The translations under genes and the position numbers were made by a program. A stretch of 49,684 nt of DNA from a bacterium (GTDB taxonomy: Bacteria > Patescibacteriota > Saccharimonadia > Saccharimonadales > SZUA-47), in the NCBI GenBank assembly GCA_030427125.1, contig JAUHXF010000007.1, positions 1 through 49,684 on the forward strand, read 5' to 3'. This document shows, one piece after another, positions 13,332 through 31,530 of this stretch. How positions within the stretch are numbered: the stretch's first letter is position 1; the number at the start of each line of letters is the position of its first letter. The notes beneath the pieces were generated by a model that was not told the DNA's origin, searched no databases, and saw only the letters and a program-made list of their open reading frames with translations.

Positions 13332-16300
13332 CTACGGGAGCGGGCAGTTTGGTTGACTGCCAGCTGGATTAGCTCCACTTACACGACACGGCGTGTCTAG
13401 AGGCTGTTCTACGCCCTGAATGAACGTCTTGCCGTGCCTTAAACGCTTATTTGGGTCTGCAGTAAAGAATAACGTAAAGTCATCAATTGTAGGCCCTCTT
13501 GTGACATCATCTGGATAGCCAAAAGTCTGTGATGCATCAATAGACATAGTTACGTAGAAGTAGCGTGCAAAATTGGTAGGCACACCCGACTCATCAATAG
13601 GGGTATATTCTTCAACCCGGCCCAATGTAACATCTCCAAAGTCCGTATCTTGACCCCATGATCTTTCTGGCCCTCCCACCCAATCCGAGCTGGAACTTTC
13701 AAAATCATCTATGTTGAATGCATAGTTATTGTTAGTTGGTGCGTTAATACCCACTCGTATCTCGTTAAATTCGTCCGCTGTTGCAGAGTCTAGATCTATA
13801 GTCACTTCGTTATCCGGTGTAGTGCCCTGGAAATTACTATCACGATAAATACGAACTGTCATCTGATCATTAACAAGACCAACTTCTACTCTGTGCCATG
13901 TATCAATGGTTAGCGCGGGAAACGTCTGGTCTGTAGTAAACTTATCACGCACTTCTATGTCTCCATTAGCTGCCATATACAAAGCTCCTATTGTCTCATA
14001 TGATGGACTCGTACTTGCCGCTTGATAAAACCGCACTGAAGAAAATAGAGTCGCATAGCTTTGAGGCCTTATATAGAACTTGTCATACCGAACAACTGAG
14101 TCATCCGTCGTATCATAACAACCAGCATAGGAAGCTCCGCCATTAGCAACAAACTCTGCGGATGTAGATGCACTAACACTATGAGTCGTATCAAATTGTG
14201 CTGTTGCCGAAGAAGACCCGTTAACTGCATAGCAAGTATCGAAATCTGTGGTATCTGCAGGGGTCAATGAAGCACCATCGGTACCGGTGAATGTTTCATT
14301 TAAAAATACATTAGAGGCGTCCGCACTAGAACGATATCCGAACTGCCACCGAGCACCGATATTATTGTCGAGTCCATTAAGCAGCCAAGAATTAGGAAAT
14401 ACATTAGTATCTGCATCAACGTAATAAGAGTACCGAGCAACCTGTGGCTGAGAACGAAGCGTACCGTAATAGTGTTGGTTAGACGTTAGCTCTGTACCAC
14501 AACCACCCCCAGTGATATATACCTTACCTTCGTTGTAGGCAACACCTGCAGAGTAACGATCACCCGTATATTCTACGTTTGTCTGATACCACTCGCCAAT
14601 TCCTGTCGGATTATTGCCAGATGCTATAGTTGTATTCGCGCTGATTGGGGCAACATAACTATTATTTGTACAGGTGCTGACAGCCGACCTACCACCAAAC
14701 AGATACAAAAATCCATTAGAAGCGAATCCGTCGGCATCGCTGACATATTGCGGCAAACTTGTTGTAAACGTCCAGTTACCTACCGAACCATCATCAATCA
14801 GATAGCGAGAGCCGGCTGTGACCGTTTTACTTGCGTCAACGGTGAGTGACGTTGCGCTATTGAATGCTGTAATTGTCGCAGTCGATCCGTCAGCATACTG
14901 CAGCTCTTCGCCAACCATACTAGAGGTAAATGCTGTTCCTGACCCCGTTACTGTGTTCCCAGATTGTCCTATTGTACCTGTCTTATAGCCTATTGAAGCA
15001 AACTGTACATCAGATAGATAATTTGTACCATCGTTCCCACCCAGCAAGTAGATATTGTTTGCATACGTGATTACTGCGCCACCACTTCGTGCAACGTCTG
15101 GTTGGATGGCATTTGTAGCCCACGCAGACGTAATATTACCGCCATTACTTAGTTTTGGTGACACATATACAGTGTTAGTCTCTGATCCGCTGTCGTTCAA
15201 CCCTGCGACCACATATATTCGGTCATTCCAGACAGCTGCACCGTGACGCGTTCTATCAGCAGGAAGACCATTCGAGGCAGTTGACCAAGAATTGATATCT
15301 ACCACGCCAGCATTTCCAGCCATATTACCGAAGTCGACTGACTGCAGCCAACCAGCATTATCTTGACCGCTATAGTCTCTGGAGATACTCACGGTTGTGT
15401 CGTTCGTGTAGTAGTTTGAGTAACCAGCTACACGAGTATACGCAGTACCAGTACCTGTAGACGAATAGTAGAACAACGGAATCCTGTATCCTTCAGAGCT
15501 TGTAATATTGCCGACTGTCGCAACAGATTCTGGCTCGATAGAAGAGTCAACGGACTCCGTAAATGAGGTTGAGCTACTTTCTGTATGGAAACGATAATCA
15601 ACAGCGACATTACTGCTCTCCATTACATACACCGTATCGTCTCTCACATCCGCACTGTCGTTATATCTAGAACCTAACGAAATCTCCGAAACAGTTCCTG
15701 TTGGATCGGCGACACCATCACCAAGTGTCAATACTTTACCAAATGCTCCATCACCAAGCCCGTTCTGCTCTGACGTTCCTGGCGACTTCCAAACCCAAGT
15801 ATTTACACCAGTCACAGATGTTATGCTCTCCTGGTGGTATTCTCCTGTAGCGTCGACACCAGCCCCACCTTCACTCCAATTATCTACATTAACTTCTTGT
15901 ACACTCCAGCTTGACCCCCAATCAACAACATATATCGTTATATCAGCTGCAGCAGCAGTACCCTGAGTATCATTTCGTTCGACACGAATTTGGTTCGTAC
16001 TATTTTTTCGTACTCTCACACCTGCCGTTGCGTTAAAATTATTCTGACCAGTATCTGAAGTGACTAATCCTCCACCCAAATAACCACCAAACGGTACGGT
16101 GTTTGTACCATGAGCTGCCCCAAGCGTGAAATCTTCGCTCAAATCACTGGCTGGAAGCGTCCCATCGATTACTTCTGCCAGCTGAAAACCATCCGTTGAG
16201 CATGAACTAATACACTCTACTACAGTTACCGATCCGTTCCAGTTATCGTCTGAACTACCTCGTTCTAATCGTATTTCGTCTGACGACGTTGTTGCAGTTA

Positions 16301-19300
16301 AATTGCCAAACGGATCACCGTCTACCCTTATTTGAGAACTATCCGGTCCGCTCGTACCCCCAGTATCATCTCCACCAGCTACCATGACAAAATAATCAGA
16401 CTCTAGATCATTATTAAGTGTAAGCGTGTAGTTTGCACCGCTAAACTCGGTTGAGTTAAGTTTATACGTTGTACTGCGAACAACATCATTTGTAGCAACA
16501 CCACCAGTTGGAGTCGCATAGTATACTTCCGATTTTTCGTCACCACCAGTGTCTTCTCCACCTACGTAGTACAACGAACCCCCTACAGCTTCAAGCTGGC
16601 CATAGGCCCTACCTGCAGGAAGTGAAGCAGAAGTATCCGACCAAGATCCTATTGTACCGTTTGGATTTATAGGCGCGTACTGAACATTGCTCGTTACACT
16701 GCCACTGTTCTCTCCACCTGCAACATAAATATACCCATCTAAAATTGCTGCGCTGGAACCAATCCGACTATTCAGTGTTGCAAAATTCCCAGTTGATTCT
16801 GTGTAGTTTGCCTGTGCACCCGAGTCGTTGTTGTAAAGCTGAAACGTCTGAACCGATGGTTCAAATGAAGAGCAGTTGCTTGGGCTTGCGCCGCTGTCGC
16901 AACCCCCTATCACATAGGCAAAAGAGTTAGAAACCACCATACTCAATCCCCATCGCTGATTGATCGTCACATTTGAGGTCACAAAGGATTCGAGGCTACC
17001 ATCACTGACATTAATTTTTGCCCACTCAATAAAAGGAATAATTGTCCCTCCGCCACTGGCATCGTATCCACCAACGGCATAGATGTGCCCATTATAGCCA
17101 AACGCCCACCCCCGGCGACGCCCAATTGATAGTTTGCTTGGAGACTCAATCCAATCAGAACCTGATACGGCAACTACGTCATTATTATCGTCAAATCTGG
17201 CATACAATACGTCATCTTTATCATTCTCAGCTTGACTAAACCCACCAATCAAATAAATATAGTTTGCATATACAGTACCGGAGTGAATCCCCAGCCCGTC
17301 AGAGCCACCGCTGCCTGGTGTTGAATCGATTTGTAGCTGACCTGCTGTAGTGCAATCGTTAGCGTTCGCCTCTTCAATATCACCGTTGGTCTCAATATTA
17401 CATTTATACACTTCTGTTTCGTAATCGCCATTAGCACAGCCTGCACCACTACCACCGTCTCCACAACCTCCGAAGACGTATAGATTTCCTGGGTAGGTTC
17501 CTGCTTCATTCGGATTAGCTCGAGCGTAAGCATAGGTATAGAAAATATCTTCAGTTATACCAGCGTTTCCGAGGTCTTGCGTTGACCAATTGCCTGAAAG
17601 TTCACCTGTAGTTGGGTTTACAGAGTTATGGTAGAGTTCGCCCGTCGTATTTCCCGAAGAGTCTATACCGCCAATTATATAAATTCTATTATTGAACGAG
17701 GTGACCCCAGCTGCAGCGACACCGTTGGCACCATTAATAGTATTAGTACTATTAACACACCAAGCTCCATAGCTCGTGCCGCTACAACTGCTGGGCGCAG
17801 CCAAAGAACCGTCTGAGGCTATAGAAACATGTGCAGTGTTACTGGATATGTTGTCGTTCGTCGGAGAGTTTCCATTGTCGTTACAGTCGTACTCAGCACA
17901 CCCGCCGATTACGTACAAAAATCCGTTTAGTACAACAGACATATTTAGCATATGGCCCAGCTCACCAGCATCATCACCAACAGTCGGTAAGTCGCAGTTT
18001 GTCGGTGAACCGCCCGTACAATCACCGGAGCCACTAGGTTCAGTAATGTTGACGGTCGAGACCTCTCCAGGAGGGTTAATGACTCCAAATGCTGTTTCAG
18101 GAGAAGTCACACTACAATCACCTGAAGCATTGAGTGTTATACAACCACCCAATCTGTACACATTGCCTTCCCATGAATGTAAGCCGTACCCTAATCTCTG
18201 GTTTGTGGTTGCGCTGTCTGTACTCCAAGTCCCTAGACTGCCATCTGCGAAAATACTAGCAATTTGTATTTCATCCCCAATAGCCTGACAATTGCCACTA
18301 CTCACAGACGTACAGCCACCCATAATGTATAAGTACGCTCCATAAATAGTCGTAAAGCTTCCACCTTCGGATCGCCGTGCCCCACTAAAACTAGAAGTCG
18401 TTTCCCACGAGCTACTAAACGTTCCGTCTGCGGCTAATTTCACGTACTCTACGGTGTTAAGTAGCGCTCCCGTTGCATTTGAATCACCACCGACAACATA
18501 CAAATAACCGTTGTAGACTTCAGCGCTATGCATGAAACGAGAGGTGCTTAAGGCTGCGGTCCCAGAAGTAGTCCATCCACTCAAAGTGCCTGTGGGGTTG
18601 AAATTCGTATAGGCGACTGTAGTTACACCGCCTGGCGACCCTGCGGTTGCGCCACCCATGAAATATAATCTGTTGTTATAAGCTACAGCTGCTCCGTACT
18701 TTGTCGCTGTTGTTAAAGGAGATCCTACGTCTTCATACCAATAAACCCAGTTACTCTTATCTGGGTCAGACGGGTGCCATAAACTTGGCTCTCCATTTGC
18801 ACCAAGCTTCGCAATGTATACAGTTGCTTCTATGTTACCCAGATCGTCTTCACCTCCGATAGCGTACAAAAAACCATTGTATGCTACGAGGCTAAACCCG
18901 CGACGATCTTCAGGCAGATCATATGCGCTATCTGTACACCAGTCGGTACATGCACCGTCTCCAGGATTTGGGCTGGTTAGCGCTCCACTATTATCGTCTA
19001 TATTTGCCCAATACAGCTCTGCTTTAGTCTCGTTATTAAGAATTGGAGTGATGATGATTTTTCCATCCGATCCATCGGTTCCGCTGCTAGAAGTGGCACC
19101 ACCCGTGCCTCCGTCACCAGCACCGCTCCGATTTGAATCACCACTGTTACCAGGGTCTGTACCTGATCCAGGTGCAGAGCTCGTAGCACTCGCTGATCCT
19201 TCGTAGTAGCTCACCCCAGAGCCACCTCCACCTCCACCAGCTTGCCCAGAGTCTGACCCACTACCACCGCCACCGCCGTAATAACCAGAACCGCCACCAC

Positions 19301-21140
19301 CGCCGCCTGCGAATCCTGCTCCGTCAGCCTGGTCACCGTTTCCGCCATCGCCGCCGCCGTTAGACCCTCCGTTATTTTTCGAACCATCAGTTCGACCGCC
19401 ATCTTGTGATGCTCCATCAGCTCCTTCACCGCCAAATTCAGAGCCGCCATCTTCGCCATCATTCTCATCACCGTTTCCACCTGAACCACCAGACCCCGTT
19501 GTCGCCCCCGAACCACCTGGCGCATTCGTAGAACCTTCTGAGCCATCCTCTCCAGAGGTAGCGTCACCTCCAGGCGCACCATCACCTCCGGCACCGTTGC
19601 TCGCTGTTCCTCCAGAGTTATCTCCACCACCGCCGCCGCCACCGCCAGCAGCGACAACAAGAGGAGTACCCGATCGATTGACTTCAGAATGACCGCCACC
19701 ACCGCCGCCATCACCGCTTGCGTCTCCTTGAGTACCGGTACTAAAATCTCCTCGCCCACCGCCTCCGCCGACAACAACATTGAGACTCTCAAAAGCAGAC
19801 ACATTCACAACAGCTGTAGCGTAGGCACCGCCGCCACCATCACCACCGGATCCATTGCTACCATTCGTACCACCACCACCGCCACCACCACCGCCGCCCC
19901 ACATCTCGATTAGTATTTGAGTGATGCCTGCTGGTACGCTATACGTATCAGGTGTGGTTGAAGTGTACTCTGTAGATGAGGCGACACCAGCACTACCGAC
20001 ACCGCCGAGATAATACACATACCCACCTGCAATCGCACTTCCTCCATCAGTAAGTCCAGAACTGAATGACATAGTGTTTGTCCAATCCTCAAAACGAGCA
20101 CCAGTTGTCGATCCCTTCTGAATTAGTTCATTATCTACATCAAAATCTATATTAGTTTCGTTGTTACCTCTCATGAATTTTCTAGCTGTTTCGACATATA
20201 CACTCGGGTCGATAGACAAAGGATAGCTTGCTTGTCGTAAATTAGTCGCGACAGTAGTTAGCGTATTACCCTCTAGGGTGAAGAATGTGTCGACATTTGA
20301 ATCTTTTCTGTTCGTCTCAACAACATATGGGGCTGGAATTCTGAACAATAAATTTGTTTTTTCGCCATTCTGGCGTGCACTCTCAAGTAGCTTAGCATCT
20401 GAATCACTTCCCGTGCTTACATTACCGAGAAGCACTTCTTCAACACCGTAAAAGCCGACAGATCCATCAGCCTCTAAACGTGCATCAACCCCAGAAGGAA
20501 TCTCTAGTTCGTATGAAAAGCGAACAGATGAGCCTTGATATGAATTAAGAACTATATCTTCCTTATAGCCAATGCCACCTAGACTAATAACTTTAACTGC
20601 GTCTCTACCGGGAATCGGATATACAACTCTATTTTGATCTCGCTGACCATTCCCAACAGCAAAATTAGGCGTGACTTTAATGGCAGTGCCGCTTGATGGA
20701 TCAATGATAGAGCGCGCTTCAGCACCATTCAGTGGGAACGAAGCGCTAAATTTTGGTGATCCCTTGGTGCCAAAAATTCCGCCACCTGCTTGATAGCCTT
20801 TGTTGTAGACAAATTCTTGTTTTTCGCTGTCAAATTCAAGATAATTTCCAAAAGAAGGAATCGGCTCAACTAATAGTTTATTTACCTCTGGCGTTATTCG
20901 ATCTAGCGCACCTGCTGTATTTAAGAAAAGGAATGATTCACTAAGCAGCGAAAAGCTGAATAATGCAACAAGTGACAAATAACCGAGCCGTTTATGGGTT
21001 GGGTGCGAATGCCACTTCTTTGCAGTCCGAAAACGCAACATTCTACCTCGAGACCCAAACACCTTATCAAATACCGAAGTTAGCCATGGAAGTGTAATAC
21101 TACTGTGGTAAAACCTCAGAATAAGACTTTTTAGTTTCAT
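13332..21140 (-). CDS. Giant secreted surface protein with Gly-rich domain and Kelch-like repeats
   Basis: 2602 aa; N-terminal hydrophobic segment LGYLSLVALFSFSLLSESFLFL. Many Kelch-like repeats (GFLYAIGGEDDLGN, NRLYFMGGATAG, GYLYVVGGDSNATG, SFAYVIGGCDSG, GYIYVAGGENSGS). Gly-rich stretch GGGGGGGGTNGSNGSGGDGGGG... Confidence 0.85.
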   Translation of the reverse strand: MKLKSLILRFYHSSITLPWLTSVFDKVFGSRGRMLRFRTAKKWHSHPTHKRLGYLSLVALFSFSLLSESFLFLNTAGALDRITPEVNKLLVEPIPSFGNYLEFDSEKQEFVYNKGYQAGGGIFGTKGSPKFSASFPLNGAEARSIIDPSSGTAIKVTPNFAVGNGQRDQNRVVYPIPGRDAVKVISLGGIGYKEDIVLNSYQGSSVRFSYELEIPSGVDARLEADGSVGFYGVEEVLLGNVSTGSDSDAKLLESARQNGEKTNLLFRIPAPYVVETNRKDSNVDTFFTLEGNTLTTVATNLRQASYPLSIDPSVYVETARKFMRGNNETNIDFDVDNELIQKGSTTGARFEDWTNTMSFSSGLTDGGSAIAGGYVYYLGGVGSAGVASSTEYTSTTPDTYSVPAGITQILIEMWGGGGGGGGGGTNGSNGSGGDGGGGAYATAVVNVSAFESLNVVVGGGGGRGDFSTGTQGDASGDGGGGGGHSEVNRSGTPLVVAAGGGGGGGGDNSGGTASNGAGGDGAPGGDATSGEDGSEGSTNAPGGSGATTGSGGSGGNGDENDGEDGGSEFGGEGADGASQDGGRTDGSKNNGGSNGGGDGGNGDQADGAGFAGGGGGGSGYYGGGGGSGSDSGQAGGGGGGSGVSYYEGSASATSSAPGSGTDPGNSGDSNRSGAGDGGTGGATSSSGTDGSDGKIIITPILNNETKAELYWANIDDNSGALTSPNPGDGACTDWCTDSAYDLPEDRRGFSLVAYNGFLYAIGGEDDLGNIEATVYIAKLGANGEPSLWHPSDPDKSNWVYWYEDVGSPLTTATKYGAAVAYNNRLYFMGGATAGSPGGVTTVAYTNFNPTGTLSGWTTSGTAALSTSRFMHSAEVYNGYLYVVGGDSNATGALLNTVEYVKLAADGTFSSSWETTSSFSGARRSEGGSFTTIYGAYLYIMGGCTSVSSGNCQAIGDEIQIASIFADGSLGTWSTDSATTNQRLGYGLHSWEGNVYRLGGCITLNASGDCSVTSPETAFGVINPPGEVSTVNITEPSGSGDCTGGSPTNCDLPTVGDDAGELGHMLNMSVVLNGFLYVIGGCAEYDCNDNGNSPTNDNISSNTAHVSIASDGSLAAPSSCSGTSYGAWCVNSTNTINGANGVAAAGVTSFNNRIYIIGGIDSSGNTTGELYHNSVNPTTGELSGNWSTQDLGNAGITEDIFYTYAYARANPNEAGTYPGNLYVFGGCGDGGSGAGCANGDYETEVYKCNIETNGDIEEANANDCTTAGQLQIDSTPGSGGSDGLGIHSGTVYANYIYLIGGFSQAENDKDDVLYARFDDNNDVVAVSGSDWIESPSKLSIGRRRGWAFGYNGHIYAVGGYDASGGGTIIPFIEWAKINVSDGSLESFVTSNVTINQRWGLSMVVSNSFAYVIGGCDSGASPSNCSSFEPSVQTFQLYNNDSGAQANYTESTGNFATLNSRIGSSAAILDGYIYVAGGENSGSVTSNVQYAPINPNGTIGSWSDTSASLPAGRAYGQLEAVGGSLYYVGGEDTGGDEKSEVYYATPTGGVATNDVVRSTTYKLNSTEFSGANYTLTLNNDLESDYFVMVAGGDDTGGTSGPDSSQIRVDGDPFGNLTATTSSDEIRLERGSSDDNWNGSVTVVECISSCSTDGFQLAEVIDGTLPASDLSEDFTLGAAHGTNTVPFGGYLGGGLVTSDTGQNNFNATAGVRVRKNSTNQIRVERNDTQGTAAAADITIYVVDWGSSWSVQEVNVDNWSEGGAGVDATGEYHQESITSVTGVNTWVWKSPGTSEQNGLGDGAFGKVLTLGDGVADPTGTVSEISLGSRYNDSADVRDDTVYVMESSNVAVDYRFHTESSSTSFTESVDSSIEPESVATVGNITSSEGYRIPLFYYSSTGTGTAYTRVAGYSNYYTNDTTVSISRDYSGQDNAGWLQSVDFGNMAGNAGVVDINSWSTASNGLPADRTRHGAAVWNDRIYVVAGLNDSGSETNTVYVSPKLSNGGNITSAWATNAIQPDVARSGGAVITYANNIYLLGGNDGTNYLSDVQFASIGYKTGTIGQSGNTVTGSGTAFTSSMVGEELQYADGSTATITAFNSATSLTVDASKTVTAGSRYLIDDGSVGNWTFTTSLPQYVSDADGFASNGFLYLFGGRSAVSTCTNNSYVAPISANTTIASGNNPTGIGEWYQTNVEYTGDRYSAGVAYNEGKVYITGGGCGTELTSNQHYYGTLRSQPQVARYSYYVDADTNVFPNSWLLNGLDNNIGARWQFGYRSSADASNVFLNETFTGTDGASLTPADTTDFDTCYAVNGSSSATAQFDTTHSVSASTSAEFVANGGASYAGCYDTTDDSVVRYDKFYIRPQSYATLFSSVRFYQAASTSPSYETIGALYMAANGDIEVRDKFTTDQTFPALTIDTWHRVEVGLVNDQMTVRIYRDSNFQGTTPDNEVTIDLDSATADEFNEIRVGINAPTNNNYAFNIDDFESSSSDWVGGPERSWGQDTDFGDVTLGRVEEYTPIDESGVPTNFARYFYVTMSIDASQTFGYPDDVTRGPTIDDFTLFFTADPNKRLRHGKTFIQGVEQPLDTPCRVSGANPAGSQPNCPLP
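19200..19910 (-). repeat. Low-complexity Gly-rich coding region
   Basis: Dense ccaccaccgccgcc-type sequence on the + strand, encoding Gly/Ser/Asp-rich protein on the minus strand. Confidence 0.85.
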
Positions 21141-21259: not shown

Positions 21260-24200
21260 TTATCGACCTGTTGTCACGAAGGATAGGGTTGATACATACG
21301 CGTTCGCATTACTTTGAGCCTTAAGGTTTATCTTGAAGATAATGAAGTCACCTGCAGCTGCGGCATTCAGACCACAACCTGTTGATTCATTTCCGTTTAT
21401 TCCGTAACTATACCAAGTGTCTGCAGAACCACCTCCACCTGTAATGACATCTGTTTCACCTGTTCCACACTGTGACACATCAGAACCTGTTGATCTAAAC
21501 ATCTCATACGTTACAGATGCATTTGAGGTGTTATCCACTCGGCCCACGAGCTGGACAGTATCATCACTGCTAAATCCGTTGAACGTCTCAGGTAACTGAT
21601 AGGTTACGTAAATGCTGTACGTTTGTTCAGTAGCTTGTGGAGATGTCCAGTTGTAGAAGTTCTTAGCTTCTCCAGAGCCACAGAACGTTGAATTTACAGA
21701 TAGATCGACGTCGTTAGAACAGAAGTCGGCCGTCATCGTACCTACACCTGATCCATTCAATACAGCACCTGCATACTCTGGGTTTAGGTTCACGACGTTA
21801 TCAGGTGCGGCACCACACGCGCCCCATCCATCAGCTTCATAACACTGAATACGTCCGGTAATCGTATCGTAGTACATTGAACCGAGATACGCTTCGTTAT
21901 TGTCAGCAATCGGGTTGCCTGCGGATCTATCAAGTGTGAACAGTGTTACTGGACCACCTAGATTACCCCCGCCTACTTGCACATTGTTTGAGTTATTTGT
22001 GTTCAGTGTAATCGATAACGCGTCAATAAATATTGATCGAGCCGTAGAATCAGTTTGATATATGACGAGGTCTGGGTTTGTTATAGTTGTTCCTGTTGTA
22101 GTAAATAAACATGTAACTTTTGTCCACACTCCAGCGGTCAGAGACTGAGTGTTGTAATCTGTACATGCAGCAGTACCGCTTGGAGTGCTTGTGCCACCTG
22201 TTGGCAAGAACCCGACCGCAAGACTACCGCTCATAGTAGTATCTGTCCGAGCATAGAAGCTGACAAGATACTGTGTGTTAGTAGCAGGGTCAATTGCAAG
22301 GTTGTTACGGATGCCTTGATTAGCGTTGGCAGATGTTGCCACTTCCGCTGATGCGCTAGTATCATAAATGATACTTGTTTCCTCTGTTACTACAGATGAA
22401 CCTGCGCCACCATCAAAGTTTGTCCAGTTGGTTCCAAATGCTCCAGAGTTATCTACGCTACCGTCAGCGGCATATGTTGCTGACGCATTGATATTTACAC
22501 TGAGATTGTCTATGTAGAATGTTCTAGCTGTGCCATCACTTTGACGAATAAATATCGCGTTACTTGCTGTTATTCCACTTGAAGGAGCAGTGAATGTACA
22601 GGTGATGCGTGACCACTGACCACTTGTTACCGTTCGTCCTGTGTCGCAAGCTGTAGTGGAAGTGTTAGTGCCATCCCTTGAGTAGTCAACATCGAGGGTT
22701 GTAAAGTTCGTAAGACCTCGCACAGTAAATGAAACGGTATACTCCAAGTTCGGCGTAAGCGCTGTGGCTAGATCATTTGCAGCACCATCGTCAGTGCCTG
22801 CAGTTACTACCTGGACAGAGGCCTGTCCCGTCGCCACATTATTGCCAGTGGTTGTAAAGCGAGATACAGTACCGCCCGTTGGAGGCGCAGACCAAGTACT
22901 AGATGGGAAGACCCCTGCAGATGCACCAGCGGTTTCGGCACCACCGTTAGAAGCGAATTCCGTAGCATTATTGTTCACACTGAATAGGTTTGAACCAATA
23001 GACGTTTGTATTTCAAGGAGTCCACCTGTAATAGGCGTTGTTGCATTATTTCTTACGGTCAAACCATCTGCAGCGCCACCTGGAGCATTCAAGATAAGCT
23101 CAGCCCCACCCGCAGATGTTGCAGTATTGTTGTAGGCTGCCTGAAGGTCGGTTGAGCTAGATGCACCCGCAGCCGTCCAGTCAGAGCCATTCCAAACCAT
23201 TGTTGCAGAGGTATTTGGCTTGAGTGTCACTTCTTGTAACGAGCCACCACTGTTAGCTGCTAATGTCATATCAAATGATCCTGTGTTGGTTACGTATACA
23301 AGCCGTCCTGCTGTTGCACTCGTAGGATCTTGCAATGTAGCCGTGTAGCCTGCAGCATCAGAGCTGATTAGGATAGTACCGAAGCCGTCAATGTTTGACT
23401 GAGTTATGTTGCCACTGCCAGTAAATGCTTGAACTGTCGCTGCATCAAATACTGTGCTCTTTACCGTGATAAGTTCGTTGGTGGTGTCGACGTTTAGCAG
23501 TGTTCTGTTCGTGCCCGCAGCAGCAGTTACAACCTGGAACGCAGACGTAGAATCAGATGCATTTTGGAACAGACCTGGACCATTAACAGTTAGACCATTG
23601 TTTACTGTCGTAGTGCCGGTTGCCGCACCCAGACTGATAGAAGTTGCCGCACCGAATGCATTGACTGTCGTTGCATTCGTATCTACTAAGTTGAATGTTC
23701 CTGCTGTAGTCGTAAGATCGCCTCCATCGACTGCTAGATCAACAACGTCTGCATTACTTGAGACCGACAGTGTACCCGATATGCTCGTGTTACCTCCACT
23801 TGGAGTAATCGTGAAGTCACCTGCTCCATCAGTGTAAAGATTTGTGTACCACGTTGCATTATAAGTAATGCGTAGTTGATCTGTAAGACTTGCTCCCGCG
23901 ACTTCGAGTAAAGCGTTAGGGGTAGCTGTGCCTATCCCCACACGCTCGTTCGTTGTGTCCACATTGAATACCGGAAGACCACCATCTGCATCTAGCACCT
24001 GGAAGCCTGTGGTTGAATCTGTCTCGTTCTGTACTGTTATTGCTCCGCCATCTGCGATAGTAAGAGCATCCACACCGCCGACTTCAAACACTAGTGAGTT
24101 TGCGTCATTTGTACCTAGTGTAGCTGTCCCGCCGAAGTCGTTACCGCCGTTACGGAAGAAGCCCGTTGCAGATGTTGTATCTACACTCAGAACACCACCA

Positions 24201-27200
24201 GTATTTATTAACCCGCCGCCAGTGAAGTCGGTGAATGCATCAGAGTTGAAGGTGAACGTATCACCAGCTTCAACAGTAAGGCCACCGTTGAGGGTCGTGA
24301 GGCCGGCAACCTGCAATGCGCCAGTTATACCGACGTCACCAACAGAACCTGCATCAGTTATAGTAAGCAAACTATCGAATGTAGACCCGTTGTATCCATT
24401 AAAAGTATATGTTCCACCATCTCCTACAGCAAACACCGCGTCAGTATCAGTTACAGAATAATCGATATCATATCCTCCGCCTGATGCGTAGGCCACCTCC
24501 CAGGTATTAGCGTATCCAGTTATTGGAGCGGCGTATACAGCGGCTAGGTTGTCATAATCACCTCCGTTAACGCTCGTAGGCTGCACAAGTAAGCCAACAA
24601 CCTGGTCCTGGTCAGCGTCATCACCCAAAGTAAAGTTAATTATCTGGGCAGCACCAGTGTTTGTTATAGTGCCTGCATTCTGAGTTAACGTATTATTAAA
24701 TACACTTGGACCAGCTACCGTCAATGTGCCACTTCCTAAGAAGTTGTAGCTAGGGTTAGTTGTAGCGTTACCGAAGCTTATATTCTCTAAAGAATTAGTT
24801 GTATTGATGTTGATGTAGTTGTTGGTTCCTTCTTGAATGTCTAGAGCATTAGTAATGTTGTCGGTGAGATTAGGGTTCAAGCTCGCACAGTTATTTAATC
24901 CCTGCAAACAGAATGTATCGTTTGAGGAAATGGTAGGCACAGAAACCGTATAATCTCCAGCAAGAGCCTGAACGTCTACTGACAAAGTGTTCGATGACCC
25001 ATCAGATATTCTTAGTAGGCCTGATGTGCCTCCATTTCCTACGAGCAGATTGCCTGAGCTAACAATAACATTCCCGGAGGCCTCAATAGCTAAGCGCTCT
25101 GTGTCACTGGTTTCAAAAGATAAGCCGTAGGCATCATCAGTACCTAACACAGCAGTAGCTCCAAATGTATTACCGCCATTTTGGAAGAAGCCTGATGCAG
25201 ATGTTGTATCTACAGAGAGGACACCGCCTGTGTTAACTAGGCCACCACCGGTAAAGTCTGTAAACGCATCTGAGTTAAAGGTGAATGTATCACCTGCTTC
25301 GATAGTGAGACCGCCGTTGAGGGTCGTGAGGCCGGCAACTTGAAGCGTGCCTGAGTTACCTATATTCACTGCATTTGCGCTCGCATCGACGTACAAGGTG
25401 CCGCTATCAAACGTAACGTCGCCTAGGCTTGCACTGTTTAGATCGATAGCAAACGCCTCCTGGAAGCTGATTGGGTTACCCGCTGTACCTGCTGCTGCAG
25501 CGTAGAACCTGTAGAAATCAGCACCTTCGTCTTGCCATTGCTGAACTGCAGACCCATCCGCCAGATACACATCGTTTGCCCCGTTGTAGTATGCGTTCCA
25601 CTTCAATGCTCTATTTGAGGCGACAGAAATGTCTGTAGCTACTTCGAATCCAGCGACAGGTGCGCTTGTACCGATTCCAACGCGTTCGTTAGTGGTATCG
25701 ACTGTGAATATTGCTGTTCCACCATCTGCATCAAGTATCTGGAACCCAGCTGTCGAATCTGTTGTGTTCTGCAGAACAACAGCACCGCCATCGGCAATAG
25801 TGAACACTGCTGTGGCAGCATCTTGGACCTCAAGGATATTTCCAGTACCAGTGTGGTTGTTAATCGTGAGGGTGTTTGCTGCCGTACCAGGACCTGTTAA
25901 TAGAGTAGAGCCACTCTGCACAGTGAATGAATTACCACTCAATACGGATGTATTGCCTGATGTGTACACGTTTCCGCCATCGATAGTTGTAGTGCTTGAG
26001 TTATTACCAATGTTGATCGCCGTTGCAACTGTTGCTCCGATGTTGATTGTCGGCTGAGCTAGTGTGATAGACGTCTCGTCTACAGTCAGTACAGCGGTGC
26101 CGCTATCCTGGATCTGGAAACTACCCGTACCAGCAACGTCAACAATGAAGCTCGTTGCTTCCGAAACTTCAAAGTCGATATCCCCTTCGGCATCCGTTGC
26201 AAGAAGAGTGTTGCCCCCCTCATAAGCGCCCTGTAGCGAGATAGTTGCAGACGTTAAATATGTACTTGTGTCACAGCCTAGGTTACCAGACGCATCGGAG
26301 TTGATTGCCGTACAGCTGGTGAAGTTATTGGCAAATTGTATAGAGCCAGCATTCACCGTGAGAGTATCGCCAGAAGCATCACCGATAGTCGTGTTGCCGT
26401 TTACCTCTAAGTTTTGGTTCAATTCTAAGTTACCAGCAAAGTAGTTATCCAGAACAGAAGAGTTGTAGATTGAGTAGTTTCCAGTTGGTATTGTGCCGGT
26501 ACCGATCAAGAGGTTCGTCGAGTTATCTCCTTCGGCAGTATTAACCACTAGACTTGCAGCATTATCAATGGTGCCGGACCCATCATTGTACACACCGACG
26601 ACAAGTCCTCTTGCATTAGTGATGTCTCCACTACTACCACCCTGAGTAGCAACGATAATTTCACTTCCTGTTGCAGATGAAAGTGTACCTGACGATGCAT
26701 TTAAGACCTTTGTGACATACCCACTTAGAGTGTCAGTGTCAGAAGATCCGTTCACAACAACACCAAGATCAGTTCCTATCAGTTCAGCAGATGAAGATGC
26801 TGCAGGGTTAAGCGTTAGCCATGTACTATTGCCTGCATAGATATTCGCAGCTGTATCAGTAATCGTCTGGTTGTTTTGTACATAAATCTCGTCACATAAA
26901 CCAAAAGGTATAACACCACAACCATTAAACCCTGAACCTATTGTTAGTCTACCGTCAATCACAGTATCAGAGTTAATCAATACATCTGCCGTGCCAGACG
27001 CCTGGAGTACGAGGTTGTCGGACGCATCCATCTGGTTGGCGTAAATTGTAGATGTACTAGAGTCTGCTACAGCTCCAACATTGTCGATAAGGTTATCCGC
27101 TACATATGTAGTGGCGTTACCAGACGCAATCGCAATAGAAACCGAACCATCACTTGAGCTTTCACGAATGACGTTATTTGTAACTACGTTGTTAGCGCCT

Positions 27201-30200
27201 GACCCACCAAGATTAATATGACTATCAACGCCTGACGCGTCATTTGTATAGAATTGGTTACCAGTTATTGTGTTGTGGTATGCATTTACAGAAGTAAATC
27301 CTCGATCCGTGTTGTTGCCTATATAGTTGTTACTGATAATGTTGTACTGTTTTGCGCCTCCTCCGCTGAGCTCAATACCATGATCACTGCTATTCGTAAT
27401 CCTGTTACCATCTATAACGTTGTCTCGAGTTGCTCCATTTAGTTCTAAACCATTATTCCCATTGTCGTCGATAAAGTTACCGTACACAATATTATTGTCC
27501 GAAGCACTTATAAACAGTCCGTCGGCTAAGCCATCGATTATGTCGCTACCTTCTATCCTAATATAGTCAGAATCTAGCAAGCGAATACCGTTTGCGGCAC
27601 CAAAGTCTTTTACTGTTACGTTCTTGATTGAACCGTTTGCAGATGTATCGATGTCTATACCATTACCTTCAGTATCAGTGACCGTCACATTTTCAATTAA
27701 GAAGCCTCGTACGTACGTAGCGCCACTTCCAGAACCGACTGTATCGAATAGGATACCCTCTACGTTGTTACCCGTGACGTTATCCTTATTTCCATCGATT
27801 GTTAGGTCACGGATTGTAATATTGTTATCTGTAGACCCTGGGTTAGCGTTTTCGATAACATCGTACTGAGCGGCCAATGCACCAGCTTCAGCAATGATTG
27901 TAGTTGCTTCTTGGCCCGATCCTGCAAGTGTGACATTACTTGTTATTTCGATTGAACCATCTACCGTGAATGTACCCGGAAGAAGCTGTACCGTTCCACC
28001 GTTAGCCCCAAGTGATGTAATAGCCGTATTAATAGTCAGATGGTCATCAGTATTGTCTGCCACATAATCAGCCGCGGCTTTCTGTGCTGCTGTTGAATCG
28101 TCTGCTGCAACTGTAATGATTTCATCTGAGCCTGTGTCTGGATCAGCACATGCCCATGAGCTTGAACCAGTTGAGTACTGGAGGATTTGTCCATCACCAC
28201 AGTCGACGAGAGAGATACCATTAGCGTCTACTTCAAGGCCTTTGTTTGCTTGCACTTGGAGTGTTAATGCGTTAGATGATACTTGGAGTCCATTTCCTGT
28301 GAGATCAGTGAAGGCATCGCTGTTGAATGTGAAGGTATCACCTGCTTCGATAGTGAGGCCGCCGTTGAGGGTCGTGAGGCCGGCAGCTGTAAGTGCTCCT
28401 GTAACACCAACATCACCAACTGTTCCATTCACGTCTATTGTAAATAGATCATTTCCCGTACTGCCCGTAAGGTCTGTAATCCTAAGAACATCAGCGATTG
28501 CAACCCTAGCTGACGTATCTTGAAGCGCCAGTGCAACGTCCCAGTTGTTGCCAATAAGTATCGCAGCCTCTCCAACTGTAGGGTTGTCACCAGCAAGATC
28601 CTGTATGTAAAGACCAACGAGCTGATCAGCGTCCCCAGTTGCTGCACTAGTTGCACTAACTGAAAGTGCACTTACAACATCCACATCAGCATCATTGCCA
28701 AGAGTCACACTTATAGACTGTGCTGAGCCTGAGTCGGTGATTGTTCCAGGGTTAACAGTAAGAGTGTCATTAAACGTCTTAGCACCTGCGAATGTCTGCG
28801 CTCCCGCAGACACAAGTCCAGGATATGTTGCATCTGCGGTCTGTAAATAGATTGCATTGGCACTAATAACAGCACCGTCGGCACTCTTAGTCTGTGAATC
28901 AATTGTTCCTATAGTATTAACAACGCTGCCGCTGAGAGATACTGTCGTGATCCAAGCGCTTCCGTTCCATATGAACGTATTACTCTGGCCAGCAGCGATA
29001 ACACTGTCGTACATCGTAAAGCTTACTGATCCAACGTTGTTTACGAATGCTATACGGCCAGAAGTTGCAGTTGTAGGATTCGGCAAGGTTAGTGTTTGGC
29101 CAGCAGTCGTTTGGTTGACGTCAAATGTTGTAGCTACGTCTACTGTCGTTGCAGCAGTGCCGATGTTTCCACCACCTGCCACATCAGCCACAGCGATAGA
29201 GTCAAACAACGTACTACCTTGATTAACAAAGTTCTCACCCACACTTACTGTTAAACCGCCAGCAGCGACAAGCTCATCATTAAAGGTCTTAACACCTGCA
29301 AATGCTTGACTTGCAGTATTAATAAGACCTGGCTGAGTAGCAGAAGCTGACTGTAGGTATAACGTTGTGCCGCTAATCTCAGCTCCGTTCGCGCTCGGTG
29401 TACCGCCGTCGAGCGCACCAATTGTATCTACGCCAGTGTTAGAGAACGATACTGAAGTCGTCCAACTTGAGCCATTCCATATAAATGTACTACTACTTCC
29501 CGTCTCAATTGTCTCTCCGTACATTGTGAAGTTTGTGCTGCCGACGTTGTTAACATAGACAATCCTTCCTGATGCAGTATTTGTAGGTGCCGGGAGCGTC
29601 AGAGTCTGGCCAGCAGTCGTTTGGTTTACATCAAATGTTGTAGCAACATCCACTGTCGCAGCCGCACTACCTATATTGCCACCACCAGCTATATTCCCAA
29701 TAGCGGTAGCTCCAAACAAGGTTGCACCTGCATTTGTGAACACATCCCCACTAGATACTGTTAAGCTGCCATTGAAGGTAGCATCTGCTTCCACGGTTAG
29801 TGTATCTGATGTATCAGAACCGAGAGTTGTGTTGCCATTAACCTGTACATTATTTGTGACAGTTAGTGCTGTGCCAGTACCTGTAAGGGACACTGGACCC
29901 TGTAGTGTTGTAGTTGCTGATGTGTTGCCTATCGTGATTGCACTTGCATTTGTAGCTCCTAGCGACACTGAACCAGCGTTTTGCGTGGCAGTACCTACAT
30001 CTATAGTTATGTTTCCTGAGTCACTAGTTGCACCAAGCGCATCACCTGTCTGGATAGTAACGTTGTCTGAGTCTGTAGATACTGCGTTTGTGTCATTAGT
30101 AGCCACATTTCGTGAAGTAAACGCATACGGAACTGAGGTTAGACGGAATCGAGGGCTCATCTCTCCATCCCAGCTCGCTGCACCTGCATCTCCACCAACG

Positions 30201-30934
30201 TTCATGCCTAAGTATAGTGCCTGGCTCCAGTCGATATCTGGGAGTGATGTCACGTCACCAAGGTATACAGAGAAGTATCCGTCCCGTATCGTGACAAGAT
30301 TTCCAGTAGAGAGGGTCTCAGTCCATAGACAGTTAGCATCACCGGCACATGACCCCTGTGATGACCCGACAGAGCTAAGTGCGTTATAAAGTTTAAACTC
30401 TATGTGGTAATTGCCGTCTGGGACAAGCGTACCTGAGTTGGTGAGTAACCGACCCTGGAAGTTTAGAGTATTAGTTTGAGCGTCCACTTGTTGCGGCTGC
30501 ACAAATAATATGCTGAGTGGAATTGCCATAGCGAAAACAAGAGCACCAAACAGGCTCAACGCTCGGGCGCATGAGGTTGAGCCTGTTCGAAGCTCATTAT
30601 TTTCAAAGCCGTCAAGCGAGCTCAACACTCGGGCGCATGAGGTTGAGCTCGCACGACGGCCTTTTTTACCAGACCAAAGTTGGCTCAACACTCGGGCGCA
30701 TGAGGTTGAGCCAACTTTAGTCTGGTTCATAGCAAAAAGACCGCTCACGGTGTTCAGTATCCGGGCGCATGGAACTGAACACCGTAAACGGTCTTTACCA
30801 ATGAAAAGCGGCTTAAACGCGTATCTTACGATTGCATTTAAGCCGCCTAACGACACAAGGGATAGCTTAGCCATCCCTTGCGCACTTTTAGTAATAAGTA
30901 CGTTTTTGTATTTTTTTGAGAATTTATTTTTCAT
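21260..30934 (-). CDS. Giant secreted tail-fibre-like surface protein with parallel beta-helix and C-terminal carbohydrate-binding-like modules
   Basis: ORF track runs 21260-31018 from a GTG. The ATG at 30934 (MKNKFSKKYKNVL...) is a more plausible start. Signal/TM ALSLFGALVFAMAIPLSILFVQPQQVDAQ; beta-helix-like NNIVYGNFIDDNGNNGLELNGATRDNVIDGNRITNSSDHGIEL; two CBM-like modules (NLEYTVSFTVRGLTNFTTLDVDYS...FYIDNLSVN and NTQYLVSFYARTDTTMSGSLAVGF...IFIDALSITL). Confidence 0.85.
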   Translation of the reverse strand: MKNKFSKKYKNVLITKSAQGMAKLSLVSLGGLNAIVRYAFKPLFIGKDRLRCSVPCARILNTVSGLFAMNQTKVGSTSCARVLSQLWSGKKGRRASSTSCARVLSSLDGFENNELRTGSTSCARALSLFGALVFAMAIPLSILFVQPQQVDAQTNTLNFQGRLLTNSGTLVPDGNYHIEFKLYNALSSVGSSQGSCAGDANCLWTETLSTGNLVTIRDGYFSVYLGDVTSLPDIDWSQALYLGMNVGGDAGAASWDGEMSPRFRLTSVPYAFTSRNVATNDTNAVSTDSDNVTIQTGDALGATSDSGNITIDVGTATQNAGSVSLGATNASAITIGNTSATTTLQGPVSLTGTGTALTVTNNVQVNGNTTLGSDTSDTLTVEADATFNGSLTVSSGDVFTNAGATLFGATAIGNIAGGGNIGSAAATVDVATTFDVNQTTAGQTLTLPAPTNTASGRIVYVNNVGSTNFTMYGETIETGSSSTFIWNGSSWTTSVSFSNTGVDTIGALDGGTPSANGAEISGTTLYLQSASATQPGLINTASQAFAGVKTFNDELVAAGGLTVSVGENFVNQGSTLFDSIAVADVAGGGNIGTAATTVDVATTFDVNQTTAGQTLTLPNPTTATSGRIAFVNNVGSVSFTMYDSVIAAGQSNTFIWNGSAWITTVSLSGSVVNTIGTIDSQTKSADGAVISANAIYLQTADATYPGLVSAGAQTFAGAKTFNDTLTVNPGTITDSGSAQSISVTLGNDADVDVVSALSVSATSAATGDADQLVGLYIQDLAGDNPTVGEAAILIGNNWDVALALQDTSARVAIADVLRITDLTGSTGNDLFTIDVNGTVGDVGVTGALTAAGLTTLNGGLTIEAGDTFTFNSDAFTDLTGNGLQVSSNALTLQVQANKGLEVDANGISLVDCGDGQILQYSTGSSSWACADPDTGSDEIITVAADDSTAAQKAAADYVADNTDDHLTINTAITSLGANGGTVQLLPGTFTVDGSIEITSNVTLAGSGQEATTIIAEAGALAAQYDVIENANPGSTDNNITIRDLTIDGNKDNVTGNNVEGILFDTVGSGSGATYVRGFLIENVTVTDTEGNGIDIDTSANGSIKNVTVKDFGAANGIRLLDSDYIRIEGSDIIDGLADGLFISASDNNIVYGNFIDDNGNNGLELNGATRDNVIDGNRITNSSDHGIELSGGGAKQYNIISNNYIGNNTDRGFTSVNAYHNTITGNQFYTNDASGVDSHINLGGSGANNVVTNNVIRESSSDGSVSIAIASGNATTYVADNLIDNVGAVADSSTSTIYANQMDASDNLVLQASGTADVLINSDTVIDGRLTIGSGFNGCGVIPFGLCDEIYVQNNQTITDTAANIYAGNSTWLTLNPAASSSAELIGTDLGVVVNGSSDTDTLSGYVTKVLNASSGTLSSATGSEIIVATQGGSSGDITNARGLVVGVYNDGSGTIDNAASLVVNTAEGDNSTNLLIGTGTIPTGNYSIYNSSVLDNYFAGNLELNQNLEVNGNTTIGDASGDTLTVNAGSIQFANNFTSCTAINSDASGNLGCDTSTYLTSATISLQGAYEGGNTLLATDAEGDIDFEVSEATSFIVDVAGTGSFQIQDSGTAVLTVDETSITLAQPTINIGATVATAINIGNNSSTTTIDGGNVYTSGNTSVLSGNSFTVQSGSTLLTGPGTAANTLTINNHTGTGNILEVQDAATAVFTIADGGAVVLQNTTDSTAGFQILDADGGTAIFTVDTTNERVGIGTSAPVAGFEVATDISVASNRALKWNAYYNGANDVYLADGSAVQQWQDEGADFYRFYAAAAGTAGNPISFQEAFAIDLNSASLGDVTFDSGTLYVDASANAVNIGNSGTLQVAGLTTLNGGLTIEAGDTFTFNSDAFTDFTGGGLVNTGGVLSVDTTSASGFFQNGGNTFGATAVLGTDDAYGLSFETSDTERLAIEASGNVIVSSGNLLVGNGGTSGLLRISDGSSNTLSVDVQALAGDYTVSVPTISSNDTFCLQGLNNCASLNPNLTDNITNALDIQEGTNNYININTTNSLENISFGNATTNPSYNFLGSGTLTVAGPSVFNNTLTQNAGTITNTGAAQIINFTLGDDADQDQVVGLLVQPTSVNGGDYDNLAAVYAAPITGYANTWEVAYASGGGYDIDYSVTDTDAVFAVGDGGTYTFNGYNGSTFDSLLTITDAGSVGDVGITGALQVAGLTTLNGGLTVEAGDTFTFNSDAFTDFTGGGLINTGGVLSVDTTSATGFFRNGGNDFGGTATLGTNDANSLVFEVGGVDALTIADGGAITVQNETDSTTGFQVLDADGGLPVFNVDTTNERVGIGTATPNALLEVAGASLTDQLRITYNATWYTNLYTDGAGDFTITPSGGNTSISGTLSVSSNADVVDLAVDGGDLTTTAGTFNLVDTNATTVNAFGAATSISLGAATGTTTVNNGLTVNGPGLFQNASDSTSAFQVVTAAAGTNRTLLNVDTTNELITVKSTVFDAATVQAFTGSGNITQSNIDGFGTILISSDAAGYTATLQDPTSATAGRLVYVTNTGSFDMTLAANSGGSLQEVTLKPNTSATMVWNGSDWTAAGASSSTDLQAAYNNTATSAGGAELILNAPGGAADGLTVRNNATTPITGGLLEIQTSIGSNLFSVNNNATEFASNGGAETAGASAGVFPSSTWSAPPTGGTVSRFTTTGNNVATGQASVQVVTAGTDDGAANDLATALTPNLEYTVSFTVRGLTNFTTLDVDYSRDGTNTSTTACDTGRTVTSGQWSRITCTFTAPSSGITASNAIFIRQSDGTARTFYIDNLSVNINASATYAADGSVDNSGAFGTNWTNFDGGAGSSVVTEETSIIYDTSASAEVATSANANQGIRNNLAIDPATNTQYLVSFYARTDTTMSGSLAVGFLPTGGTSTPSGTAACTDYNTQSLTAGVWTKVTCLFTTTGTTITNPDLVIYQTDSTARSIFIDALSITLNTNNSNNVQVGGGNLGGPVTLFTLDRSAGNPIADNNEAYLGSMYYDTITGRIQCYEADGWGACGAAPDNVVNLNPEYAGAVLNGSGVGTMTADFCSNDVDLSVNSTFCGSGEAKNFYNWTSPQATEQTYSIYVTYQLPETFNGFSSDDTVQLVGRVDNTSNASVTYEMFRSTGSDVSQCGTGETDVITGGGGSADTWYSYGINGNESTGCGLNAAAAGDFIIFKINLKAQSNANAYVSTLSFVTTGR
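24227..28399 (-). repeat. Three dispersed ~95-nt coding repeats in the 3252-aa ORF
   Basis: Copies at about 24227-24322, 25256-25351 and 28304-28399, all containing ccgttgagggtcgtgaggccggca exactly. They encode AGLTTLNGGLT(I/V)EAGDTFTFNSDAFTD(F/L)TG.GL. Confidence 0.85.
30541..30796 (-). repeat. Array of four in-frame hairpins with invariant octaloop ATGCGCCC (mRNA sense)
   Basis: Hairpin arms 30549-30560/30576-30587; 30608-30626/30642-30660; 30669-30689/30705-30725; 30736-30758/30774-30796. Octaloops GGGCGCAT (+ strand) at 30565-30572, 30631-30638, 30694-30701 and 30763-30770, spaced 66, 63 and 69 nt. Confidence 0.9.
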
Positions 30935-30990
30935 GTGTTGCTCTTTTTGTTTAGCAACACAGAGATCAGAAAACTGCGAGATTTTCTGAT
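30808..30990 (-). repeat. Four further consecutive hairpins preceding the octaloop array, without the octaloop
   Basis: gcggcttaaa/tttaagccgc (30808-30846); caagggat/atcccttg (30856-30880); gtgttgct/agcaacac (30935-30960, directly before ATG at 30934); atcagaaaa/ttttctgat (30965-30990). Confidence 0.75.
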
Positions 30991-31095
30991 ACTGCGCCCG
31001 TCTATAGTGCAATAACACCTTAGACTCACTAAGTGTATAACAATTGTGTTCAGTAATACAAGGGTTTTACGTTTATGTTTTTTAAGTTTTCCACA

Positions 31096-31120
31096 AGAAA
31101 AAAGCCCCTAACTGGGGCTC
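31096..31120 (-). terminator. Rho-independent terminator of rplU
   Basis: Minus strand agccccagttaggggcttttttctt: 6-bp GC stem followed by a T-run, just after the rplU stop. Confidence 0.8.
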
Positions 31121-31141
31121 CTCTTTGCAATACTGGTTTAA

Positions 31142-31453
31142 CTACGCAGCGATTTTTTCGATCTTGATCTTGCTCAAAGTCTGGCGATGACCACGCTTTG
31201 TGTTTACTCGCTTCTTAGCTTTATAGCGAATTGCCACGACTTTGTCGCCTTGCAAGGTATCTTCGACGACTTTAGCTGTTACCTTTGCAGATGAAAGCTT
31301 CTTCGCATCAACGACAGAACTCTTTCCATCAACAATCATAACAGGAGTAAAATCGACAGACTTCTTTGCGTCAGGAATATGGTTAACTGTGAGCTCTTCA
31401 CCTTCTGAGACGAGATACTGTACACCACCACTGACTATAACTGCTTTTTTCAT
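31142..31453 (-). CDS. rplU: 50S ribosomal protein L21
   Basis: 103 aa; MKKAVIVSGGVQYLVSEGEELTV...VVAIRYKAKKRVNTKRGHRQTLSKIKIEKI typical of L21. Confidence 0.93.
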   Translation of the reverse strand: MKKAVIVSGGVQYLVSEGEELTVNHIPDAKKSVDFTPVMIVDGKSSVVDAKKLSSAKVTAKVVEDTLQGDKVVAIRYKAKKRVNTKRGHRQTLSKIKIEKIAA

Positions 31454-31530
31454 TCGTATTCTACTTTCTTTAGAATTTTGAGTTGAAGTAAATCATAGCA
31501 AATCTACCTCTGTTTGTAAAGGTTAAGACT

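Follow-up and report, generated by a model that had tools for sequence, protein, structure and literature searches.

In the ultra-small Saccharibacteria, judging from sequence comparison, an RNA device probably controls the production of a giant surface protein. In the window (the whole stretch of 49,684 nucleotides that was analysed), an array of four hairpins lies between the start codon of the giant gene and its transmembrane (signal-sequence) codons, and the leader of the same gene carries the motif GGGCGC, the reverse complement of the array loop (GGGCGCA against UGCGCCC). As aligned among relatives, loop and leader change together, whether the comparison is between families or between two paralogs in a single genome. 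The element is apparently an undescribed RNA device. A search of window 30400-31500 against Rfam returned no match at gathering score, the best being sub-threshold microRNA-precursor models, and no description of the element was found in the open papers searched, within the limits of that library.

The hairpin array and its gene

Re-examination of window positions 30541-30796 found the four hairpins where the initial annotation had placed them. They are real and far above chance expectation, since the 261-nt array RNA folds at -165.4 kcal/mol, compared with -78.9 +/- 4.9 kcal/mol for dinucleotide shuffles (z = -17.5). Their consecutive arrangement and in-frame phasing of 66/63/69 nt were described correctly, and the spacings in relatives are likewise always multiples of three, with a constant reading phase. 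The hairpins had been read on the plus strand; their place was right but the strand was not, as the gene lies on the minus strand and the functional-strand loop is therefore ATGCGCCC. On the mRNA of the giant gene the loop reads AUGCGCCC, and all four occurrences of the nine-base motif GGGCGCATG in the 0.92-Mb genome fall within the array. In mRNA order and on the minus strand, the hairpins are H1 (30736-30796; loop ATGCGCCC at 30763-30770, collar TCC/GGA, followed by a U-run), H2 (30668-30726; loop 30694-30701, collar CTC/GAG), H3 (30605-30663; loop 30631-30638, collar CTC/GAG) and H4 (30542-30594; loop 30565-30572), directly after which come the transmembrane codons. The bulge previously noted is present, but on the mRNA strand it is a pyrimidine, and in relatives it can be C, T or A, so that a bulge is conserved there but not the identity of its base. 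Similarly, the proposed peptide (S)(T)SCAR(V/A/I)L(S/N) holds for three units, which read S-T-S-C-A-R-V/A-L-S, but not for the first unit in mRNA order, which reads CSVPCARILN. We also observed a wobble patch (U·U, G·U, U·G) at stem positions 14-18 from the loop, for instance in H1 (30736-30796), which recurs in many copies; within the patch, roughly a helical turn below the bulge, G·U falls at stem position 15 and U·G at 17.

The giant gene (21260-30934, minus strand) encodes a surface protein of 3224 aa with a signal-type N-terminus; its open reading frame spans 21260-31018 (minus strand), with ATG at 30934-30932 as the likely start codon. The protein has no NCBIfam match, and its N-terminal 406-residue stretch has no Pfam match. 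Translation places the hydrophobic codons of the predicted signal/transmembrane segment (GALVFAMAIPLSILFV; topology from sequence only) at 30500-30547 and the first mature domain (NFQGRLL..VPDGNYHIEFKLY..), which is common to homologous surface proteins of the order, at 30098-30472, both on the minus strand. The gene lies directly downstream of rplU (31142-31453, minus strand; named from sequence as ribosomal protein L21), a conserved upstream neighbour: the giant gene follows rplU in most array-bearing genomes and also in many homologs without hairpins. A second giant gene with Kelch motifs (2602 aa; 13332-21140, minus strand) is directly downstream of the first and a third (3314 aa) is found at 1572-11516, so that giant surface-protein genes appear to cluster behind rplU.

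Upstream of the start codon, the minus strand carries a predicted promoter, TTGTAT-16-TATACA (31034-31061), recognised by consensus match only; the promoter block GAACA..TATACACT is conserved in the eight family members. It is followed by a leader hairpin at the predicted 5' end, P1 (GTCTA..TAGAC; 31000-31025), whose arms vary between genomes and stay complementary, and by the leader motif 5'-GGGCGCA-3' (30993-30999), predicted to be single-stranded between P1 and P2. P2 (30965-30990) has a loop block, TCTCGCA, that is invariant in eight genomes while its stem varies, P3 (GTGTTGC..GCAACAC; 30935-30960) adjoins the start codon, and P4 (GCAAGGGAT..ATCCCTTG; 30856-30881), conserved in the family, is a coding-region hairpin in the first codons. 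Alignment of the eight family members gives the common order promoter, P1, GGGCGC(A/G), P2, P3, start codon, P4. As folded, the RNA forms nine hairpins in succession, nearly back-to-back, that reach from the putative 5' end as far as the transmembrane codons, which makes the array part of a larger structured leader. A coding role of the leader was rejected because the distances between leader motif and start codon are not in one reading phase.

Distribution among Saccharibacteria

A covariance model (R1) built from the four window units found arrays in seven other genomes of the home family, all at the 5' ends of homologous genes. With 2-6 copies per gene, the element is present in all eight members where the locus was found, and each of these loci combines the hairpins with one GGGCGC in the leader, upstream of them. 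Recurrence in eight MAGs excludes an assembly artefact, a doubt that the initial annotation had raised. The exact build (8-nt loop, 3-bp collar, 1-nt 3' bulge and long stem) is restricted to the home family. Three other families of the order, each represented by one genome (G033, G035 and G045), have one or two hairpin copies, one of which, G033a, is without a bulge. In all four families a hairpin directly precedes the transmembrane codons. Both this recurrence across families and the complementary leader motif had escaped the initial annotation.

Of 295 genomes of the order, 116 proved by protein search to have homologs of the first mature domain, and about 900 bases upstream of 80 of these homologs were inspected, two being cut by contig ends. 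The element is absent from most homologous genes of the order and is thus not essential for this protein class. A second model, R2, gave no further credible matches in overlapping samples of 393 genomes from the order, 393 from the class and 380 from the phylum, and a loop-motif scan found no copies elsewhere in the genome of the window. In an exact-pattern scan of GTDB, paired hairpins occurred only in MAGs of Candidatus Saccharibacteria/Saccharimonadia or in MAGs labelled 'bacterium' that have the same gene and array. Five matches outside Saccharibacteria (two Chloroflexi, Hyphomicrobiales, Rhodopseudomonas and Sphingobium) have unpaired flanks and were attributed to chance, as were three extra matches of R2 (G432, G450, G551) and one of R1 (G052), which lie outside a homologous gene or have a different loop. 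A GCGCCC hairpin in G110 was set aside, its build being different and the motif distant. Viral contigs gave no match at the pattern used, and a viral origin was rejected on this ground.

In G002 (L010, 1500-1652), at a contig end, a hairpin unit is repeated in tandem as an exact 69-nt copy, and G005 (L011) has two near-identical units; in both, the array has grown recently. These duplications make the process of in-frame array growth visible. A single hairpin ahead of the membrane segment may be the ancestral form, with further copies added upstream through in-frame tandem duplication. Several forks in the tree of the first mature domain are too weak for a count of independent events.

Evidence for selection on mRNA structure

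We consider it highly likely, from covariation and the choice of wobble pairs, that the structure of the mRNA is under selection. Among 25 hairpins, two-sided changes were seen at 13 of 15 pairs and 94.7% of cells were paired; the covariation score was 0.776, against 0.271 +/- 0.022 for shuffled and at most 0.171 for slid alignments. The constraint on nucleic-acid structure proposed earlier is thus borne out, and the non-Watson-Crick pairs pin it to the mRNA strand. When G·U and A·C were treated alike in stem extension (a symmetric count), there were 55 G·U and 7 A·C on that strand (p = 2e-10), a count in which related hairpins are not fully independent, also because the wobble patch recurs at stem positions 15 and 17. 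The inner 14 pairs, from hairpins that are likewise related, gave 12:1 (p = 0.003). A DNA-level or purely mutational cause is strand-blind and would give equal numbers of the two pairs. The large excess of G·U on the mRNA strand therefore indicates that the selected molecule is the mRNA and not the DNA or the peptide.

The peptide had been expected to persist without the pairing if the initial reading were wrong, and the opposite is seen. Between the H1 orthologs of two genomes of the same genus, 14 of 70 sites differ and 9 of 24 amino acids have changed while pairing is kept. In other families the corresponding peptides are SVSCALRLG, SVASARYLG and SVLHALVLG. Conservation of the pairing while the peptide changes suggests that the mRNA structure is what is kept and that the peptide follows.

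Complementarity between loop and leader

GGGCGC is invariant in the eight leaders of the home family, whereas the preceding P1 varies. The loop:leader pair is UGCGCCC:GGGCGCA in four genomes, CGCGCCC:GGGCGCG in two, AGCGCCC:GGGCGCU in G045 and UUGCGCCCU:AGGGCGCAA, a 9-nt match, in G035. The paralogs of G033 have ACGCCUU:AAGGCGU (two exact copies) and ACGCCC:GGGCGU (three copies). Calculated duplex energies range from -11 to -17 kcal/mol. In the exceptions, G003 and G006 (loop C, leader A), six of the seven pairs are kept and the seventh is A·C. The leader motif is upstream of the start codon in most cases and just after it in G035.

A match of 7-9 nt in one leader has a chance probability of p = 0.002-0.05 each; the concerted change of loop and leader, above all between the G033 paralogs, is a stronger argument than such single matches. 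Within the home family, six of the seven loop-leader positions are invariant, so that the covariation of this kissing contact rests on few independent changes, at pairs 1, 6 and 7. For that reason physical pairing in cis is something we infer, and we regard it as likely that leader and loop form a long-range pseudoknot or kissing contact.

A possible role in expression and its alternatives

We propose that the 5' leader and the first ~130 codons of the giant mRNA may form one cis-acting structured RNA domain. Pairing would join the single-stranded leader GGGCGCA to the 8-nt loop on a bulged hairpin immediately ahead of the transmembrane codons and close a loop of about 130-560 nt, enclosing the start codon in all cases but G035. 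In-frame duplication in the home family would offer each leader motif 2-6 alternative partners. The contact could lower ribosome entry, P3 adjoining the start codon, or protect the 5' end against decay. As ribosomes moved through the array, the hairpins would open and the leader would be freed, so that translation of the signal region would itself meter initiation on this ~10-kb secretory mRNA; having several hairpins would provide redundancy, with some hairpin folded at all times. Because a ribosome on the signal region must unfold the hairpins and break the contact, the contact would lend itself to gating or metering initiation, or else to clamping the 5' end against decay. We favour the gate over the clamp, although the two are not separable.

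Control of translation or of mRNA decay would be the likeliest role of the element. That the leader-loop pairing acts in cis on the expression of the giant-gene mRNA seems rather more probable than the contrary, and translation control as its purpose is a tentative choice, to which we would give somewhat less than even weight. A link with secretion is also suggested, since four families have a hairpin just ahead of the membrane-segment codons.

The consecutive hairpins and closed 5' end could instead serve mRNA stability only, guarding a long message from ribonucleases while initiation is uncontrolled. P1 at the predicted 5' end, the nine consecutive hairpins and closure by the leader-loop contact would all fit, but the hairpin adjoining the transmembrane codons in four families is left unexplained, and we hold this explanation to be unlikely. 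Slightly less credible still is that the bulged hairpins are binding sites of an RNA-binding protein, for product feedback or membrane localisation of the mRNA, with the leader motif competing for the protein or forming an additional part of its binding site. Multiple copies suggest avidity, and the conserved bulge, 3-bp collar and 8-nt loop, with the wobble patch in many copies, would suit such a site; however, a plain protein site does not need a loop that changes in step with the leader, collar and bulge vary in identity, and the G033a hairpin does without the bulge.

We judge it improbable that H1 works as a conditional intrinsic terminator inside the coding sequence, with leader pairing or the trailing ribosome opening it, so that transcription of the ~10-kb gene would depend on its translation. 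The gene is indeed very long and a U-run follows the first hairpin in five of eight family genomes (G000, window 30735-30796; G001; G003; G006; G008), but the U-run is missing in G005, G010, nearly all later hairpins and the other three families, and the conserved loop-leader match does not need it. Neutral template switching in quasi-palindromes, which would keep the arms complementary with no RNA function, could generate long near-perfect stems of unrelated sequence and the tandem duplications of G002 and G005, yet as a strand-blind process it accounts neither for the 55:7 ratio nor for the leader match and is most improbable. Equally improbable is a peptide-driven repeat or a mobile in-frame palindrome of the Rickettsia type, with structure as a by-product: reading phase is kept in all copies and STSCAR recurs in three window copies, but peptides vary between families and orthologous copies while pairing is kept, and the element has no copies elsewhere in the genome and always occupies one homologous position.

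The leader-loop pairing that we prefer may have counterparts in other genes. Folding of the 240 nt ahead of the first mature domain gave z below -3 in 24 of 69 other homologous genes (L035-L111), against 6 of 69 for an upstream control window, and strong structure before membrane codons looks widespread among homologous genes. Immediately downstream of the start codon, four paralogous genes (L050, at window ~1-520 on the minus strand, L081, L096 and L076) have GGGAAGGGACG (or GGGAAGGGATC; ..GATC in L076), whose complement CGTCCC (GATCCC in L076) lies in the internal loop of a hairpin that covers the membrane-segment codons. The pair GGGAAGGGACG/CGTCCC looks like a second version of the leader-hairpin principle, with one compensatory variant, and is a lead only. 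A generic search of all homologs for long complementarity between leader and pre-membrane region gave mostly AT-rich noise. It is conceivable, though less likely than not, that a general, undescribed mechanism exists in Saccharibacteria in which the start of surface-protein mRNAs pairs with hairpins overlapping or preceding the codons of the membrane segment. Such pairing would couple the loading of ribosomes to the signal region's translation or membrane insertion, with strength tuned by tandem copies and with at least two unrelated sequence versions (the other being GGGACG/CGTCCC).

Comparison with known systems and significance

Pseudoknots in ribosomal-protein mRNAs (alpha operon, rpsO) form around the start codon and control initiation; they are short-range, single and bound by a ribosomal protein, whereas the present element has a long span (130-460 nt), hairpin arrays and no known ligand. 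Hairpins in the coding region of flavivirus RNA affect start-codon choice or genome cyclisation. Here, too, a hairpin or pairing site in the early codons would work as RNA, some of the flavivirus cases being long-range, but those are single elements of eukaryotic viral RNA with another purpose.

Another close comparison is with repZ of the IncI-alpha plasmids (ColIb-P9; Asano and Mizobuchi, 1998, as cited in PMC8383071 and PMC10724649). Long-range pairing in the repZ mRNA leader decides translation, and the pseudoknot, which lies upstream of the ribosome-binding site, is blocked by an antisense RNA. The likeness to repZ is long-range pairing inside one mRNA, here inferred from sequence. In the Saccharibacteria, complementary single-stranded partners covary in one mRNA, with few independent changes and one mismatch in two genomes. 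Unlike in the repZ leader, the loops are in the translated region and repeated in tandem, and the start codon lies between loop and leader motif; we claim no sequence relation. By analogy, the element may be in kind a cis-acting leader pseudoknot, working like those of the repZ type.

Rickettsia palindromic elements are about 150 bp long, inserted in frame in many unrelated genes and translated (PMC10969869). Palindromic DNA that is in frame within coding sequence and translated is common to both, but here it is confined to one gene family and one position, with a 60-96-nt period and a leader partner. The dispersed copies of such elements, or of MITE-like mobile palindromes, are lacking, as the model matches only at homologous genes and its weak extras are unsupported. 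The mobile palindromic element first suggested was accordingly abandoned: the genome has no loop motif outside the array, and the array sits at one homologous position where it has grown by in-frame tandem duplication. An integron attC site was likewise rejected. The R-box GTTRRRY/RYYYAAC is not kept (GTTGAGC in many copies, ACTGAAC, GCTGAGC and GTCGAGC in others) and the constraint falls on the mRNA strand.

Little is known of gene regulation in the Candidate Phyla Radiation. If our reading is true, this group would have a cis RNA element with its working parts inside protein-coding sequence, in tandem and tied to a leader motif, and it would be a clean case of RNA structure overriding protein sequence. 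The giant surface protein is of a kind that may meet the host cell, and the element would give an approach to the control of the largest proteins that a minimal cell secretes.
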